Position numbers and translations under genes: made by a program. A stretch of DNA of 64,000 nucleotides from Myxococcus xanthus (GTDB taxonomy: Bacteria > Myxococcota > Myxococcia > Myxococcales > Myxococcaceae): contig NZ_FNOH01000003.1 of NCBI RefSeq assembly GCF_900106535.1, positions 558,001 to 622,000 of the forward strand. The letters are read 5' to 3'. Shown here in pieces: positions 53,712 through 61,132 of the stretch. Under the pieces are notes generated by a model that saw only the letters and a list, made by a program, of their open reading frames with translations, did not search any database and was not told where the DNA came from. Position 1 is the first letter of the stretch, and each line of letters begins with the position of its first letter.

Positions 53712-54320
53712 TCAGCGCGAAGCGCGCCTGGCGAGGACTGCCTTCACGTCGTCGAGCGAGAGGCCCAGGGGCCGGACCGCGACGAGCACGTGGTAGAGCA
53801 CGTCCGCCGCTTCCTCCGCGGCGCGTGACGGGTCCACGTCCGCGCACGCCGTCACCAACTCCGCGGCCTCCTCGCCCAGCTTCTTCAAGCGCAGGTTGCG
53901 GTCCTCCAGCAGGCGGCGTGTGTAGCTGGGAGGCGCATCATCGGGCCGCTCCGCTGGTGCGGCGCGCCGAGCGAGCGTGTCATCCAGCGCGCTCAGTGCA
54001 TCCCAACGGCCCGGGCCGAAGCAGGTCTTCGTCCCCAGGTGACACGCAGGGCCCGCCTTCGCCACGCGCGCGAGCACCGCGTCACCGTCACAGTCGGCGC
54101 GGAGCGCCACCACGCGCTGGACGTTTCCACTGGTGGCGCCCTTGTGCCACGGGCCGCGCGTGCGCGACCGGTAGTGCATCTCCCCCGTGGCCAGCGTGCG
54201 CTCCAGGGCTTCCCGGTCGGCATGCGCCACCATCAACACGTCACCGGTGCTCGCGTCCTGCGTGACGACCGTCACCAGTCCGTTGCCCTTCGCGAAGTCG
54301 AGCGCGTCCAGGTCGAGCAT
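53712..54320 (-). CDS. hisI: phosphoribosyl-AMP cyclohydrolase / phosphoribosyl-ATP pyrophosphatase
   Basis: 202 residues, the HisIE fusion doing the second and third steps of histidine synthesis. The HisI part has MHYRSRTRGPWHKGATSG, the metal-binding RADCDGDAVL and CHLG with its zinc cysteines. The HisE part (about 120-202) has KKLGEEAAELVTACAD and EEAADVLYHVLVAV. Last gene of the nine-gene his operon; its ATG shares one base with the hisN stop. Confidence 0.95.
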   Translation of the reverse strand: MLDLDALDFAKGNGLVTVVTQDASTGDVLMVAHADREALERTLATGEMHYRSRTRGPWHKGATSGNVQRVVALRADCDGDAVLARVAKAGPACHLGTKTCFGPGRWDALSALDDTLARRAAPAERPDDAPPSYTRRLLEDRNLRLKKLGEEAAELVTACADVDPSRAAEEAADVLYHVLVAVRPLGLSLDDVKAVLARRASR

Positions 54321-55099
54321 CAGCGTGTCTCCACGGCGCCGAGCCGCTCCCGCACCACGCGCGCCATGGCCGCGTTGGTGGCGATTCCATTTCCGCCGAA
54401 CGCGGTCCGCCGCCCCGTCCAGTCGGTGAACACACCGCCGGCCTCCTCGATGATGGGCTGCAAGGCCGCTCCATCCCAGGGGGACAGCAGCTCATCCACC
54501 ATGACCTCCGCGCGCCCGGTGGCGACCAACAGGTAGCCGTAGCAATCCCCCCAGGTGCGGTCCACGGCCGCATCCCGCGCGAGCGAGCGCCAGGCGGCCC
54601 CGCGCTCCGGGTACACCGGGAAGCGCTCATCCGTGGACAGCACCACGGCCTGGGACAGCTCCGCCTGCGTGGACACCGCCGCGCGCTGGTCGTTCCAGAA
54701 GCAGCCCCGCCCCGGCGCGGCCACCAGCAACTCACTCACCGCGGGGAAGTACGCGGCCCCCACGAGGATGCGCTCGCCCTCCGCCAGCGCCACCAACGTG
54801 CCCCACAGTGGGACACCGCGGATGAACGTCTTCGTCCCGTCAATGGGATCCAGAATCCACCGGCGCTTCGCGCCCGGACGTGTCTCGCCGAACTCCTCGC
54901 CCAGGATGCCGTCCTGGGGGAAGCGCGCTTCCAGCCACTCGCGCGCACGGGACTCCGCCGTGCGGTCCGCCACCGTCACCGGAGAGCCGTCCGACTTCGT
55001 GTCCACCGCGATGCCACCGCGGAAGAACCCCAACGCCGCGTCACCCGCTATCCGCGCCACCTCGGCGGCGGCCTGCATCAGATTACCCGAGTCCGTCAT
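54320..55099 (-). CDS. hisN: inositol-monophosphatase-family histidinol-phosphatase
   Basis: 259 residues. Lithium-sensitive phosphatase fold: metal ligands in [17 protein letters not shown] and [17 protein letters not shown]. The family includes HisN histidinol-phosphatases of actinobacteria as well as inositol phosphatases. Position between hisF and hisIE, 4-bp and 1-bp overlaps, and the lack of a phosphatase domain in this HisB argue that it removes phosphate from histidinol phosphate. Specificity is inferred from context. Confidence 0.85.
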
Positions 55100-55857
55100 G
55101 TCAGGCTCCGAATGTGAAGGCCGCTCTCGCGGAGCAGCGCCTTGATGGCGCCCACGGTAGTGACGCCGTCGTGAAGGATGCCCGCGACCAATGCCGCATC
55201 AGCGCCTCCCTCCTGGAATGCAGCCCGGACGTGCGCCGCGCTGCCCGCGCCGCCCGAGGCGATGACGGGCACGTCGACCGCTTCCGACACGGCCCGCGTC
55301 AACGCCAGGTCATAGCCCGTCCGCGCGCCATCCCGGTCGATGCTGGTGAGGAGCACTTCCCCTGCCCCGCGAGCCACACACTCACGCGCCCAGGCCACCG
55401 CGTCCAGGTCCGTGGGCTTCCTGCCGCCATGGGTGTAGACGCGCCAGCGGTCGCCGTCTCTCTTCGCGTCGATGCTGGCCACCACGCACTGCGCACCGAA
55501 GCGCTCCGCGCACGCGGTGAGCAGCGCCGGGTTGGCCACCGCCGCGGAGTTGATGCTCACCTTGTCCGCGCCCGCACGCAGCGCCCGGCCCACGTCATCG
55601 ACCGTGCGCACCCCGCCGCCGACAGCCAGGGGAATGAAGAGCTGCTCGGCGGTGCGCCGCACCAGCTCCCACAAGGTGTCCCGCTCCTCGGCGCTGGCGG
55701 AGATGTCGAGGAACGTCAGCTCATCCGCCCCCTCCGCTTCGTAGCGCCGGGCCAATTCCACCGGGTCACCCACGTCGCGAAGTCCCTCGAACTGGACGCC
55801 CTTCACCACGCGTCCGCCCTTCACGTCCAGACAGACGACGAGCCGCCGCGTGAGCAT
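55096..55857 (-). CDS. hisF: imidazole glycerol phosphate synthase, cyclase subunit
   Basis: 253 residues, TIM barrel. [14 protein letters not shown] carries the first catalytic Asp, [10 protein letters not shown] and [12 protein letters not shown] the first phosphate site, [15 protein letters not shown] the second catalytic Asp and VIASGGAG the second phosphate site. It works with HisH glutaminase encoded in the same operon. ATG one base inside the hisB stop; the stop overlaps hisN by 4 bp. Confidence 0.97.
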
Positions 55858-56393
55858 CACTTCACCTCCAGGGACACGGAGCCCTTCATGCTGAACACCG
55901 AGCCGGAGTCCACCATGGCATCCCGCAGCGCCAGCCCCAGCGCCTTGAAGGACGCCTCTGTCGCGTGGTGGCTGTCCTTTCCGCGCAGCACCCGCAGGTG
56001 CAACGTCACCCGGGCGTGCTCGCTGAACGAGCGCATCCAGTGCTCGTAGAGCCGGTTCTTCAACGGGCCCTGGTAATAAAAGCGCCCCCCTGCATCCAGA
56101 CAGGCCTGCACCAGCGCGTCGTCCATGGGAATGGTGCGCTCGGCGAAACGCGCGGCCGTGGCTGGAATCACCTGCTGCACCGCCGTGCCCAGCGTGATGG
56201 CCACGTCCTCCATCACATGGTGCGTGAGGTCCCCCCGCGCATGCAGCGAGAGGTCCAGCCCCGCGTAGCGCGCGAAGGTGGCCAGCATGTGGTCGAAGAA
56301 CTTCAACCCCGTGTCCACGTTCGTGACGCCCTTGCCCGGCGCCAGCTCCACCCGGACCTGCGTCTCCTTCGTCTCCCGAATGACAGTGGTCAT
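55857..56393 (-). CDS. hisB: imidazoleglycerol-phosphate dehydratase (monofunctional)
   Basis: 178 residues. Manganese ligands lie in [27 protein letters not shown] and [14 protein letters not shown], the two-repeat signature of the dehydratase. The N-terminal HAD phosphatase domain of the enteric bifunctional HisB is absent, which explains the separate hisN phosphatase. Overlaps hisA by 4 bp and hisF by 1 bp. Confidence 0.97.
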
Positions 56394-57106
56394 CCCGCGA
56401 ACTCCCGAGCGACTGCGCTCGCATCCAGCCTTCCGGTGTACAGCGCCATGCCAATGACGGCCCCGTATGCGCCCGCCGCCGCGAGGGCCCGCAGGTCCTC
56501 CATCGTCGTCACGCCACCCGACGCGTACAGACGGTGCCGGCTGGTGCTCGCCACCTCCCGCATCAACGGCAGGTCCACTCCCGACAACTGGCCCTCCTTG
56601 TGGACCGCCGTCACGAGCAGGCCCCCCAGCGGCAAGGGCTCGAAGGCCGCCAGCACCTCCCGGATGTCCCGATGGCTTCCCGCCGTCCAGCCTCGCGTCA
56701 CCACCTCTCGCCCCTTCACGTCCGCGGCCACCACCACCCGGCCGGGGAAGCGGTTGGCGATGTCCGCCAGCCAGCCGGCGTCTTCGATGGCGCGAGTTCC
56801 CACCACCACGAACTCGGCTCCGCCTGACAGGACGGTCTCCACCCGGTCGGAATCGCGCACGCCGCCGCCCACGGAGAAGGTGAGCCCTCGCTCGTAGGCG
56901 GTCAGTTGGAAGATGGCGTCCGCGTTGGAGCCCTTGCCCAGCGCCGCGTCCAGGTCCACGACATGGAACGCGCGGAAGCCGTGACGGCGCCACTGCTTCA
57001 ATGCCTCCAGCGGTTCCTCCACCCGGACCTTCTCCGCCGCGTACGAGCCGCCCACGAGTTGGACACACGCGCCCTCGCGCAGATCGATGGCTGGAATCGC
57101 AATCAC
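56390..57106 (-). CDS. hisA: phosphoribosylformimino-5-aminoimidazole carboxamide ribotide isomerase
   Basis: 238 residues, TIM barrel paralogous to His[18 protein letters not shown] with the catalytic Asp, [20 protein letters not shown] (phosphate), [16 protein letters not shown] and [15 protein letters not shown] start overlapping the hisH stop by 4 bp (GTGA). Confidence 0.97.
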
Positions 57107-57696
57107 GGCGCCACCTCCCGCAGGAAGGCCTGCACGAAGCGCACGCCCGCCGTGGAGGACTTCTCCGGGTGGAACTGCACACCCACCACCCTTCCCCTGC
57201 GCACCGCCGCCGGGAAGCGGTCCGCCTCGTGCGTCGTCCACCCCGTCACCACCGAAGCATCCGCGGCGCGGCAGACGAAGCTGTGCGCGTAGTACACGGT
57301 GTCCAGCCGCGCACCCGCCAGCGTGCGTTCGTCCTCAACCTGGTTCCAGCCAATCTCGGGCACTCGCTTCGCCGCCAGCCGTTTCACCCGGCCCGCGAAG
57401 TAACCGAGGCCGGCGCCCTCGCCTTCGTCACTGCCTTCGAAGAGCAACTGCATGCCCAGGCAGATGCCCAGGCACGGCAGGCCCTGCTCCAGTGCCGCGC
57501 GCATGGCTTCGCGCCCCGGCTCGAGCCGCGCCACCGCCGCACCGAATGCGCCCACCCCCGGCAGCACCAGCACGTCGGTGTCCAGCGCACGCAAGGGGTC
57601 CTCCTGGACGCGCACCTCAGCGCCCGGCACCGTGGCCAGCGCCTTGGCCAGCGAGTGGAGGTTTCCCGCGCCGTAGTCGAACAAGGTGACTCTCAT
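57103..57696 (-). CDS. hisH: imidazole glycerol phosphate synthase, glutaminase subunit
   Basis: 197 residues, class I glutamine amidotransferase. The nucleophile is in PCLGICLGMQLLFEGS, the His/Glu pair in GVQFHPEKS. GYFAGRVKRL and VYYAHSFV are typical HisH segments. It supplies ammonia to HisF. Overlaps hisC by 4 bp. Confidence 0.97.
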   Translation of the reverse strand: MRVTLFDYGAGNLHSLAKALATVPGAEVRVQEDPLRALDTDVLVLPGVGAFGAAVARLEPGREAMRAALEQGLPCLGICLGMQLLFEGSDEGEGAGLGYFAGRVKRLAAKRVPEIGWNQVEDERTLAGARLDTVYYAHSFVCRAADASVVTGWTTHEADRFPAAVRRGRVVGVQFHPEKSSTAGVRFVQAFLREVAP

Positions 57697-58730
57697 CGCA
57701 GCGCCTCCCGCAGCGCCGCCAGCGCCGCCTCCATCAAGGGCCAGGGCCCCACACCGATTCGGAGCGCGTCGCCCACGCCCGTCAGCGCCTGGAACGCCCG
57801 CACATTCACGTCCCGCTCTCGCATCCGCTCCGCGACCGCCAACGCGCCCGGCAGCGGCACCATCAGGAAGTTGGCTTCCGATGGCAGAGGCGTCAGACCC
57901 AACGACACCAACTCGCCGCGCAGCCGCTCGCGACAGGCGACGGCTTCCTCCGCACGGGCTCGCACCCAGTCCGCGTCACCCTTCAGCACCGAGACGGCCA
58001 CGGCCTCCGCGACACTGGTGAGCTTGTAGGGTCCGCGAGCCTTCTCGAGCTCCGCCACCAGTTCGGGCGCTCCGACGCCCCACCCGACTCTCAGCCCCGC
58101 CAGCCCGAAGGCCTTGGAGAAGGTGCGCGTCACCAGGACATTCGACCGCCGTCGCGCCAGGTCGAGGAAGTCCTTCCCCGGCGCGAAGTCCGCATAGGCC
58201 TCATCGATGATGACGATGCCAGGTGCGTCCTCGACAACACGCTCCACCGCCGCCCGCGACAGCGCGGTGCCTGTGGGGTTGTTGGGCGAGCACAGGAAGA
58301 TGACCTTCGCCCCCGTGCCGAGCAGTGCGTCCGCATCCACATCGAAGTCCGGCTTCAACGGCACCGGCACGCCCTCGAGTCCGTTCACCTTGGCGAACAA
58401 CGGCACCATGACGAAGGTCGGGTCCTGATAGGCCAGCGTGTCCCCGGGCTCCAAGAAGGCGCGCAGCGCCGAGTCGATGACATCATCCGAGCCACAGCCC
58501 GTCGTTATCTCGTCGGGCGCCGCTCCAATGGACGCAGCCAGCGCCCGGCGCAGGTCCGGGGCATAACCCCGCGGATAACGCGGTACGCGGGACACGGTGG
58601 TGGCAAGAACCCGCTCCACGGAGGGCGGAACGCCAAAGAGGTTGGTGTTGTCACTCAGGTCCACCCGGCACGGCCGCGTCGAAGGCGCGTACAGCGGAAT
58701 GTCCCGATACGAAGCCCGCCTGGGAATCAT
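57693..58730 (-). CDS. hisC: histidinol-phosphate aminotransferase
   Basis: 345 residues, fold-type I PLP enzyme. SDNTNLFGVPPSV opening, GCGSDDVID phosphate cup, CSPNNPTGT, IIDEAYADF and the Schiff-base Lys in TRTFSKAFGLAGLRVGW. Length and order normal. Overlaps hisD and hisH by 4 bp each. Confidence 0.95.
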   Translation of the reverse strand: MIPRRASYRDIPLYAPSTRPCRVDLSDNTNLFGVPPSVERVLATTVSRVPRYPRGYAPDLRRALAASIGAAPDEITTGCGSDDVIDSALRAFLEPGDTLAYQDPTFVMVPLFAKVNGLEGVPVPLKPDFDVDADALLGTGAKVIFLCSPNNPTGTALSRAAVERVVEDAPGIVIIDEAYADFAPGKDFLDLARRRSNVLVTRTFSKAFGLAGLRVGWGVGAPELVAELEKARGPYKLTSVAEAVAVSVLKGDADWVRARAEEAVACRERLRGELVSLGLTPLPSEANFLMVPLPGALAVAERMRERDVNVRAFQALTGVGDALRIGVGPWPLMEAALAALREALR

Positions 58731-60040
58731 GGCCGCCCCCAGGCGCGCGCGGCGTCCGCGTGCGCGAAGAGACCTTCACTGTCGGCCAGCCGCCCCACGT
58801 CCTCCGCAAGAGACGCCGCCGCCGTGGGCGCGACGCGCTGGTAGGTGGTCCACCGGTAGAAGTCGAGCAGGTTGAGTCCCGAGTACGCCCGCGCCAACCC
58901 CGCCGTGGGCAACACGTGGTTGGAGCCGGTCATGTAATCGCCGTAGGCCACCGACGAGCGCTCACCCAGGAAGACGGTGCCCGCGTTGCGCACCTGCCCC
59001 AGGTCCTCCCGCGGCGACGCGGTGGCGATGAGCAGATGCTCCGGAGCAAAGTCCGCCACGAAGGGCCAGGCTTCCTCCAGGGACGCCACCGTCAGCACCG
59101 CGCCGCGAGAGCCCAGGGCCGACGTGACGATCTCCCACCGCTTCGCGCGCTCGGCCTGCCGCTCCACCTCCGCGGCGATGGCGTCCGCCAGCGCGTCCCC
59201 CAGCGCCAGCGTGACACAAGCCGCCTCTGGGTCATGCTCCGCCTGAGCCAGCATCTCCCGCGCCACCGCGGCAGGGTTCGCCGTGTCGTCGGCCACGACC
59301 AGGATTTCACTGGGGCCCGCGGGTGCTTCAATCGCCACCGCGCCCACCACCTGCAGCTTGGCCTCGGCCACATAGGCATTGCCCGGCCCCACGATGCGGT
59401 CCACGCGCGGCACGCTTTCCGTGCCATGGGCCATGGCCGCCACCGCGCCAGCGCCGCCCAGCGAGAAGACTCGGTCCGCGCCCGCCAGAGATGCCGCCGC
59501 CAGCACGCTGGGGTGTGGCAATCCATCGGGCCCCGGCGGCGAGCACACGATGACCTCGCCCACGCCCGCTACCTTCGCGGGCACCACCCCCATCAGTACG
59601 CTGCTGGGGTACACCGCGCGGCCTCCCGGTGCATACACCCCCACGCGGCCCAGCGGATCCGGCCGCCGGCCCACGAGCACACCGGGCTCGGTTTCGACCT
59701 CCACCCATTGCGGCTTCTGCGGCGCGTGCGCCAGGGCGATGTTGCGGGCCGCTCGGGCCAGCGCGTCCCTGACCGATGGCTCCAATCCGGCGAGCGCCGC
59801 GGCACAGACCTCTCGCGGAACCTCCAGCGCCGTCAGCTCCACGCGGTCGAACTGCCGCGCGAGTTCGAAGAGCGCCTGGTCCCCTTCCGCTCGCACGCGG
59901 GCGATGATCTCCCGCACGCGCAGCGCGACGCGGGCATCGGATCCAGTCGCGCGGTCCAGCAGACGCCGGACGTCCTCCCGAGCAAGAGCGGACAGAGGAC
60001 CGCGGTACCTCAGGGTCGACGAAGCAAGGAAGGCCGTCAT
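58727..60040 (-). CDS. hisD: histidinol dehydrogenase
   Basis: 437 residues. GRVGVYAPGGRAVYPSS, VDRIVGPGNAYVAEAK, IEAPAGPSEILVVAD, the metal/active-site stretch QAEHDPEA and the C-terminal SNHVLPTAGLARAYSGL are diagnostic. It performs the last two oxidations to histidine with NAD and zinc. Overlaps hisG and hisC by 4 bp. Confidence 0.97.
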   Translation of the reverse strand: MTAFLASSTLRYRGPLSALAREDVRRLLDRATGSDARVALRVREIIARVRAEGDQALFELARQFDRVELTALEVPREVCAAALAGLEPSVRDALARAARNIALAHAPQKPQWVEVETEPGVLVGRRPDPLGRVGVYAPGGRAVYPSSVLMGVVPAKVAGVGEVIVCSPPGPDGLPHPSVLAAASLAGADRVFSLGGAGAVAAMAHGTESVPRVDRIVGPGNAYVAEAKLQVVGAVAIEAPAGPSEILVVADDTANPAAVAREMLAQAEHDPEAACVTLALGDALADAIAAEVERQAERAKRWEIVTSALGSRGAVLTVASLEEAWPFVADFAPEHLLIATASPREDLGQVRNAGTVFLGERSSVAYGDYMTGSNHVLPTAGLARAYSGLNLLDFYRWTTYQRVAPTAAASLAEDVGRLADSEGLFAHADAARAWGRP

Positions 60041-60897
60041 GCCATCAACCTTTCAATGCGGGTGACGAGGATGCCCTCGCAGCCCAGTGCCTTCAGCGCG
60101 TTGATGGTGCGGTAGATGGTCTTCGCCGGCACCACCGCGTGCACGGCCACGAAGTCACCACCGTCCAGCACGTCCACCACGGTGGGACCATTGAGGCCCG
60201 GGAGGACTTCGCGCACCCGGATGAGCGAATCCTTCGGCACGTTGGCCATCAGGTAGCGCTTGTCGCGCGCCGCCAACACCGAGCCCAGCGCCTGCTTCAG
60301 CTCGTCCAGCTTCTGCTGGGTGTCCACCGGATTGCCCTTGCACGCCACCAGCCGCGCGCTGGACTCCAGCACCGTGCCGACCTCGCGCAGGCCATTCATC
60401 TTCAGCGTGGAGCCGGTGGACGTCAGGTCCACGACGATGTCCGCGATGCCCAGATGGGGCGCAATCTCCGCCGCGCCCGATACTGGTACCACCGCCACCC
60501 GCTGCCCGCGCCTGGCGAAGAACTCCTGCGTCAGCCGGGGGAAGCAGGACGCGACCCGCATGCCCTCCTTCACGTCTTCCGGCGAGGCGAAGCCGCCCTC
60601 CTCCCGCGCCGCCACCACCAGGCGACACCTGCCGAACTCCAGGTCCATCAGCAGGTCCAGCTCACGTCCGGACTCACACACCAGGTCCCAACCGGTGACA
60701 CCCGCATGCGCGGCGCCGTCCGCCACGAACTCCGGGATGTCCTGGGCGCGGACGAAGATGGCCTCGAACTCTCCGCCCAATGACGCGGTGAGCGCGCGCT
60801 CACCCCGGGCCCGCACCTCCAGGCCCGCGTCATTGAACAACTCCCGTACTTCGTCCGAGAGGCGGCCTTTGTTGGGCAGAGCAATCTTCAGCAGCAT
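60037..60897 (-). CDS. hisG: ATP phosphoribosyltransferase, long form
   Basis: 286 residues. The first and committed step. Catalytic region with IALPNKGRLSD, AGVTGWDLV and ADIVVDLTSTGSTLKMN, followed by a C-terminal regulatory domain (about 205-286, RYLMANVPKDSLIRVREVLPG) of the long HisG type that binds histidine for feedback inhibition, so no HisZ partner is needed. AAGG ribosome site. First structural gene of the operon, 43 bp after the attenuator terminator. Confidence 0.96.
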   Translation of the reverse strand: MLLKIALPNKGRLSDEVRELFNDAGLEVRARGERALTASLGGEFEAIFVRAQDIPEFVADGAAHAGVTGWDLVCESGRELDLLMDLEFGRCRLVVAAREEGGFASPEDVKEGMRVASCFPRLTQEFFARRGQRVAVVPVSGAAEIAPHLGIADIVVDLTSTGSTLKMNGLREVGTVLESSARLVACKGNPVDTQQKLDELKQALGSVLAARDKRYLMANVPKDSLIRVREVLPGLNGPTVVDVLDGGDFVAVHAVVPAKTIYRTINALKALGCEGILVTRIERLMA

Positions 60898-60939: not shown

Positions 60940-60970
60940 AAAAAAGGCCCGTCCTGGGGGGACGGGCCTT
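60940..60970 (-). terminator. his operon attenuator (intrinsic terminator before hisG)
   Basis: On the minus strand AAGGCCCGTCC (60970-60960) pairs perfectly with GGACGGGCCTT (60954-60944) around a 5-base loop and runs into six T (60945-60940). It is the clearest intrinsic terminator of the window and lies between the histidine-rich leader and hisG. A competing hairpin, TGGGTG/CACCCA (61018-61013 and 61000-60995), covers the leader stop codon. Confidence 0.85.
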
Positions 60971-61003
60971 CGGTCGCTGCGGCAGGTGCCGAGGTGGGTG
61001 CGT

Positions 61004-61096
61004 CTAGCGTCTCACCCAGGCATGCGCATGGCGAACGGTCCCGTCGGGGCCGAGCCGATGATGCGCATGGTGATGGTGAAGGGACGCGGAGAGCAT
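61004..61096 (-). CDS. hisL: histidine-rich his operon leader peptide
   Basis: 30 codons. After M-L-S-A-S-L it reads HHHHAHH at residues 7-13, with two more His at 23 and 25: eight His in 30, in front of a terminator and hisG. This is the standard plan of his attenuation: stalling on scarce His-tRNA lets an alternative fold form and prevents termination. No strong ribosome site is visible; the likely promoter is so close that the message may be almost leaderless. The gene name is by analogy with enteric hisL. Confidence 0.85.
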   Translation of the reverse strand: MLSASLHHHHAHHRLGPDGTVRHAHAWVRR

Positions 61097-61103
61097 CGCA
61101 GCA

Positions 61104-61132
61104 TGAGTAACGACAAAGCGCCCCGCCGTCAA
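61104..61132 (-). promoter_or_regulatory. candidate promoter of the his operon
   Basis: TTGACG (minus strand, 61132-61127) is a good -35; 17 bp further is TACTCA (61109-61104), a poor -10. It would start transcription within a few bases of the leader ATG. This is the only -35-like element in the short space between hisL and the divergent thiO. Confidence 0.35.

Follow-up and report, generated by a model that had tools for sequence, protein, structure and literature searches.

One of the closest known counterparts of the element analysed here is the histidine attenuator of enteric bacteria (hisL; Rfam family His_leader). Like it, the element upstream of hisG in our Myxococcus xanthus sequence (a stretch of 64,000 nucleotides, hereafter the window) combines a short leader peptide carrying a histidine run, a pause-type hairpin, an alternative antiterminator and an intrinsic terminator before hisG. 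Unlike the enteric case, no 5′ UTR or Shine–Dalgarno site is predicted, an alanine interrupts the His run, its codon lying in the helix arm of His-Ala-His codons, and the frame has 30 codons with a long conserved tail and matches no Rfam family at gathering score. Comparative work by Vitreschak (2004) and by the group of Lyubetsky reportedly covers such attenuators across a wide range of proteobacteria, myxobacteria possibly among them. Predicted his attenuators of Firmicutes have a leader peptide with three to five His codons and a terminator and antiterminator before his genes (PMC9413887), but they belong to different lineages, and the accessible text of that article makes no mention of leaderless initiation. 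The available portions of two further papers report no conserved RNA structure upstream of his operons in Actinobacteria (PMC1262725) and place a his leader peptide in bacilli, with Myxococcus unmentioned there (PMC2965389).

The preliminary description of the locus had singled out an almost leaderless start as a departure from the enteric case. A leaderless start is indeed predicted, but leaderless leader peptides are already known from other operons, namely S. meliloti trpL and, going by the portions of the sources available, Streptomyces, so the element varies a known principle and does not introduce a new one. Polycysteine leaders are said to have been described in mycobacteria by Canestrari in 2020. 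Leaderless leader peptides of Streptomyces lividans, eight of them listed in the accessible part of the source, do not include one for his (PMC8079986). These actinobacterial leaders, as far as the available text describes them, are likewise leaderless, amino-acid-rich ORFs before biosynthetic or related genes, but they concern other amino acids. In S. meliloti, the accessible sections describe a trpL leader RNA (rnTrpL/peTrpL) that begins at the ATG of the leader ORF and mediates ribosome-dependent attenuation (PMC7298713); unlike the present element, that attenuator involves tryptophan, a 14-aa peptide and trpE(G), and a trans role is reported for it. Among the matches listed in literature searches on his attenuation (Myxococcus, deltaproteobacteria, Gemmatimonadetes, hisG), leaderless leader peptides and comparative his attenuators, the element was not named, nor did it appear among those listed for leaderless starts mapped in M. 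xanthus. Attenuation of his operons and leader peptides that lack a 5′ UTR are each known; within the available parts of the sources, their combination is unreported for these lineages among the matches listed.

Leader and terminator of the hisG operon

The leader ORF, the terminator, hisG and the rest of the his operon all lie on the minus strand. The features, in window coordinates, are as follows.

61127..61132, minus strand: −35 element TTGACG (of the 70 family sequences that show the complete pattern, 67 have TTGACN and 3 have CTTGC/TTTGC variants)
61104..61109, minus strand: −10 element TACTCA, of which TA alone is constant, 17 nt after the −35
61004..61096, minus strand: leader peptide ORF, 30 codons with 8 His, probably leaderless; counterpart in 71/71 genomes with long HisG
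61058..61078, minus strand: putative regulatory His run HHHHAHH (codons 7–13), read from the sequence
61021..61069, minus strand: predicted pause (1:2) hairpin of the minimum-energy fold, CATGCGCAT (61069–61061, His run) with ATGCGCATG (61029–61021, later His-Ala-His codons)
61032..61045, minus strand: predicted antiterminator 5′ strand GACGGGACCGTTCG, which can pair with 60972–60961
60961..60972, minus strand: predicted antiterminator 3′ strand CGAAGGCCCGTC; shares bases with the terminator 5′ arm
60943..60971, minus strand: intrinsic terminator, 12 pairs, loop CCCCA, T-tract 60945–60940
60037..60897, minus strand: long-form hisG, which opens the operon (scores above cut-off for TIGR00070 and TIGR03455)
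53712..60040, minus strand: hisD, hisC, hisH, hisA, hisB, hisF, hisN and hisIE, several overlapping by a few bases

A 30-codon frame with eight His, an 11-bp stem followed by a T run 43 bp before hisG, and a nine-gene operon had been reported previously, and all three were recovered. The frame (61096–61004, −) encodes MLSASLHHHHAHHRLGPDGTVRHAHAWVRR and ends at a TAG stop. The terminator, GAAGGCCCGTCC-CCCCA-GGACGGGCCTTT, has 11 Watson–Crick pairs and one G–T pair with T-rich sequence after it, and ends about 43 bp 5′ of the hisG ATG (60897); a pattern scan of 1001 bases on both strands found two terminator-like sites against a shuffled mean of 0.4, the longer of them being the his terminator. 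The gene order, hisG-D-C-H-A-B-F-N-IE, fits the operon as proposed. hisN, encoding a histidinol-phosphatase (TIGR02067), occupies 54320–55099 (−) between hisF and hisIE. A thiO-type glycine oxidase gene (TIGR02352; 61196–62314, +) is divergent from the operon, and the two share 100 bp of intergenic DNA that holds the his leader promoter. In the 9.26 Mb genome, the degenerate string CAYCAYCAYGCGCAYCAY was found a single time, at the his leader.

Of 145 genomes of the order that were searched for HisG, 109 gave a match, and upstream DNA was examined in the 71 genomes with HisG at least 66% identical (the window's included) and in 10 of the other 38 matches. All 71 belong to one family (f1), which we take to be Myxococcaceae in the GTDB sense, including Archangium. 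Conservation of the His run in relatives, proposed earlier as a check, was borne out: a His-rich leader precedes hisG in 71/71 family genomes with long HisG, its stop lying about 97–132 bp before hisG, and the leader is present at the loci named Myxococcus, Pyxidicoccus, Corallococcus, Archangium and Hyalangium (the set has no locus named Stigmatella). For the other HisG types of the order, none of the 10 loci fetched (of 38) had a His-run leader, G091 contributing one chance-like frame. Across the phylum (195 genomes), long HisG with E ≤ 1e-40 was limited to family f1, with 72 matches of which one was the odd G091 (35% identity). Window HisG is 99.65% identical to that of Myxococcus xanthus strain AM003 (L001). 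A record labelled Comamonas sp. KCTC 72670 (L003) carries a Myxococcus-type HisG (91%) and the attenuator, and its label is probably wrong. Within family f1, the HisG search found no match in G049–G051, G053, G131 and G132, some of which share a genus with attenuator-bearing genomes; these may be histidine auxotrophs, carry a divergent HisG or be incomplete assemblies.

Codon usage in the His run was counted in 50 distinct sequences. In about 10 of these the anchor fell on Pro and not on Ala, and throughout the set a His adjoins the anchor by construction, so only third-base counts were used. At the His codons two and three before the Ala, CAT and CAC are about equally frequent, and directly before it CAT stands in 47/50, a pattern that fits selection for His codons together with a pairing constraint where they would form a helix. 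In G121, a one-base deletion behind the His run gives a different peptide from there on and leaves the RNA segments in place; the part that follows the run therefore appears to be conserved as RNA.

Predicted start of the leader transcript

Across the family, a TTGAC-type −35, a spacer of 17–19 nt, TA and about 11 nt precede the leader start codon in 70/71 genomes; G068 has the −35 and the GTG, with the TA missing. The distance from TA to start is 11 nt in 56/70 and 10–13 nt in 69/70, the single 14-nt distance being that of G129, where our script chose an internal TTG. If the T of the −10 is taken to be position −12, the start codon falls at +2 for a distance of 11 and at +1 for a distance of 10; in the window, transcription is predicted to start at 61097 or 61096. 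The start codon is GTG in 60 of the 70 leaders, ATG in 9 (all of the M. xanthus group, at the same place) and in one the script-chosen TTG. Since the start codon is at +1 or beside it in 70/71, as judged from the −35 and TA, translation of the leader peptide very probably begins on a leaderless RNA. An almost absent 5′ UTR, as noted in the preliminary description, thus holds as a sequence prediction, supported by a promoter-to-start spacing that is nearly fixed in the family.

An attenuator with an ordinary 5′ UTR, in which transcription would start further upstream, initiation would be conventional and the promoter-like spacing would mark something else, is unlikely. It would sit well with the poor −10 of the window (TACTCA; beyond TA, this element is weak in the family too), where a strict sigma-70 scan of the region gave no site, but badly with the spacing shared by 70/71 family members and with the T found at the sixth −10 position, at the same distance, in 57/59 promoter-bearing leaders of Gemmatimonadota. 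In-frame upstream start codons do occur in many loci; against conventional initiation at these, an SD-like motif (GGAG, AGGA or GAGG) precedes the leader ORF in just 3/70, and the family alignment has little conservation upstream of the −35.

Predicted alternative pairings in the leader RNA

The leader and terminator RNA folds at −79.1 kcal/mol (z −6.39), more stable than all 200 shuffles. Inner stems of the predicted pause hairpin enclose GACGGG. This in-frame motif (Asp-Gly codons), with the bases that follow it, can pair with the terminator 5′ arm and its upstream extension, and GACGGG and its partner CCCGTC were found in 68/71. In the window GACGGGaCCgUUCG can pair with CGAAGGCCCGUC, in G098 GACGGGUUCGaUCGC with GCGACGAAggCCCGUC, and in G130 GACGGGCUUgCGCGC with GCGCGAAGCCCGUC. 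A stem over the stop codon, described previously, stood in part: some pair encloses the stop in 70/71 local folds (55 nt), but the minimum-energy fold of the whole leader pairs the stop region elsewhere. In the folding model, the most important structure before the terminator would be the in-frame hairpin of His codons and not the stop-codon stem.

We modelled folding with the ribosomal A site on each codon in turn, the 3′ edge of the ribosome 13 nt past the first base of that codon and the terminator 3′ arm absent. Over the 71 genomes, the mean probability that the terminator 5′ arm pairs with the leader was 0.79 with the ribosome on the His run (0.25 in the lowest genome), 0.13 in ribosome-free RNA and 0.000 with the ribosome at the stop. 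All three folding criteria were passed by 63/71 genomes in the model. Six of the eight failures (G105, G110, G122, G130, G123 and G087) pair at 0.5 or above without a ribosome; the other two are probably G073 and G075, in which the run was assigned to an early, isolated His. When codons after the His run were shuffled, pairing was 0.53 versus 0.80 for native leaders, and native was higher in 67/71. This modelled difference is moderate though consistent, which G+C-rich RNA would lead one to expect.

Covariation was assessed in an alignment of 46 of 70 distinct sequences, from which near-duplicates and the seven most divergent sequences (G122, G129, G130, G123, G135, G052 and G087) were left out. 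Terminator cells were paired in 100% of cases, with both-sided changes at two pairs. In the outer pause helix (helix 1) 97% of cells were paired; two pairs had changes on one side, and two other pairs had unpaired cells. The inner pause helices (2–4) were 83–87% paired, with both-sided changes at one pair. The antiterminator was 92% paired, compared with 14–52% when slid, and showed no column covariation in the 46 aligned sequences because its core, GACGGG/CCCGUC, never varies. Column covariation supports the terminator and not the antiterminator. Leader-by-arm swaps anchored on GACGGG/CCCGTC, which used 68/71 genomes (G122, G123 and G087 were dropped, the motif pair not being found there), gave 178/20000 permutations with 23 distinct combinations, and 243/20000 over 14 lineages; unanchored swaps over 16 lineages were weak (816/20000). 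The anchored swap tests give the antiterminator modest support.

Together, the conserved leader and terminator and the folding model support the earlier proposal of his attenuation before the hisG operon, and we put the probability that the element is a ribosome-mediated his transcription attenuator at about 0.9. RNA polymerase would start at the leader start codon or one base before it, and a ribosome would load on the 5′ end of the RNA without a Shine–Dalgarno site. When charged His-tRNA is ample, the ribosome would reach the stop, GACGGG would stay covered or paired and the terminator would form. When it is scarce, the ribosome would stall on HHHHAHH and open the hairpin of His-Ala-His codons; the freed GACGGGaCCgUUCG would pair with the terminator 5′ arm, and transcription would proceed into the nine his genes. 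Of this scheme, the analysis shows the sequence elements with their conservation, the near-constant spacing from promoter to start and the logic of the folds; the true 5′ end, ribosome stalling and the histidine response are inferred.

The strong conservation of a His-rich peptide could also be read as a constitutive terminator accompanied by a non-regulatory, metal-binding His-rich micropeptide or by a trans-acting small RNA, and the accessible part of the S. meliloti work describes a terminated leaderless attenuator RNA and its peptide as acting in trans (PMC7298713). We consider this very improbable: the exact HHHAHH coding pattern is unique to the his leader in the genome, folding is coupled to ribosome position in the model, and the G121 frameshift loses the C-terminal half of the peptide with the RNA kept. 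A metabolite- or protein-sensing RNA (riboswitch or T-box) with an incidental His run is scarcely credible, for although the leader is as strongly structured as its z score of −6.39 indicates, the run is constant in 71/71, Rfam gave no gathering-score match in 20 loci, and the window region had just seven weak, sub-threshold matches up to E 10, with His_leader absent from them.

Counterparts in Gemmatimonadota and other lineages

Beyond Myxococcaceae, two Gemmatimonadota contigs have HisG 63–64% identical to that of the window, and Roseisolibacter has 69%. We sampled 200 genomes from the phylum of L028, of which 87 had a homologous HisG at E ≤ 1e-40, and applied a loose leader criterion (a frame of 12–48 codons with at least three His lying close together). 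By this criterion a putative leader precedes hisG in 76/87; of the 11 without one, 3 have contigs ending within the upstream DNA and 8 have full upstream sequence. A −35 matching 5–6 of 6 positions plus TA at leaderless spacing accompanied 58/76 leaders versus 1/1554 other start codons on the same fragments, a comparison somewhat favoured by our taking the best of the His-frame starts as the leader start. Seventeen of the 76 lack a strong promoter, several of them showing a weaker −35 (TTGCGC, for example). His attenuators of a similar and apparently leaderless kind were observed upstream of Gemmatimonadota hisG among L025, L028 and L143–L229.

A terminator was found behind 71/76 of these leaders. 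In the folding model, the 71 gave 0.71 with a stalled ribosome versus 0.00 at the stop, with a ribosome-free mean of 0.50, and 26/71 passed all three folding criteria; given this ambiguous ribosome-free state, the pause hairpin may be weaker in Gemmatimonadota. Some of the peptides (HHHAHHGHGPTGRG, for example) are similar to HHHHAHHRLGPDGT, the terminator core GGCCCGTCC is found again, and the gene order hisG-D-C-H is common to the named contigs L025, L027 and L028.

In a HisG tree of 62 rows, which included the best 30 Gemmatimonadota matches plus L025, L027 and L028 and was rooted with an outgroup of four spirochaetes on very long branches, Myxococcaceae formed a clade (100/98) among Gemmatimonadota, and the Gemmatimonadota rows needed two changes in 200/200 bootstrap trees; the fork uniting Myxococcaceae with most Gemmatimonadota was weak (83/91). 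This placement of Myxococcaceae HisG suggests that the his operon and its attenuator may have moved together between Gemmatimonadota and Myxococcaceae. More tentatively, and with the odds somewhat against so full an account, the leaderless his attenuator could be a single inherited device, brought into Myxococcaceae along with a his operon of Gemmatimonadota type and functioning in the two phyla alike. Leaderless 70S loading would then be a functional part of it: the ribosome would engage at the emerging 5′ end, so that the first ribosome would already be reading the His codons, which form the pause hairpin that it must open.

Spirochaete hisG loci L029–L031 have short His-run frames upstream and L032 has a shorter one by eye, with terminator-like hairpins after these frames, also by eye. 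Inspected by eye, L029 shows an AAGGAG site within a 5′ UTR and is therefore not of the leaderless type. A narrow scan around ilvB-, leuA- and trpE-like genes of the window's genome, in which no gene match reached the family cut-off, found no comparable leaderless attenuators, and phage records gave no match.

If the attenuator reading is true, his attenuation would extend to Myxococcaceae and Gemmatimonadota, for which no such report appears among the matches listed, and leaderless initiation would be part of a classical attenuator in these lineages. The two sets of leaders (71 + 76) supply about 150 natural variants for dissection. The element also opens to test how the first ribosome and RNA polymerase are synchronised without a 5′ UTR, and it may be an example of regulatory sequence carried from one phylum to another along with its operon.
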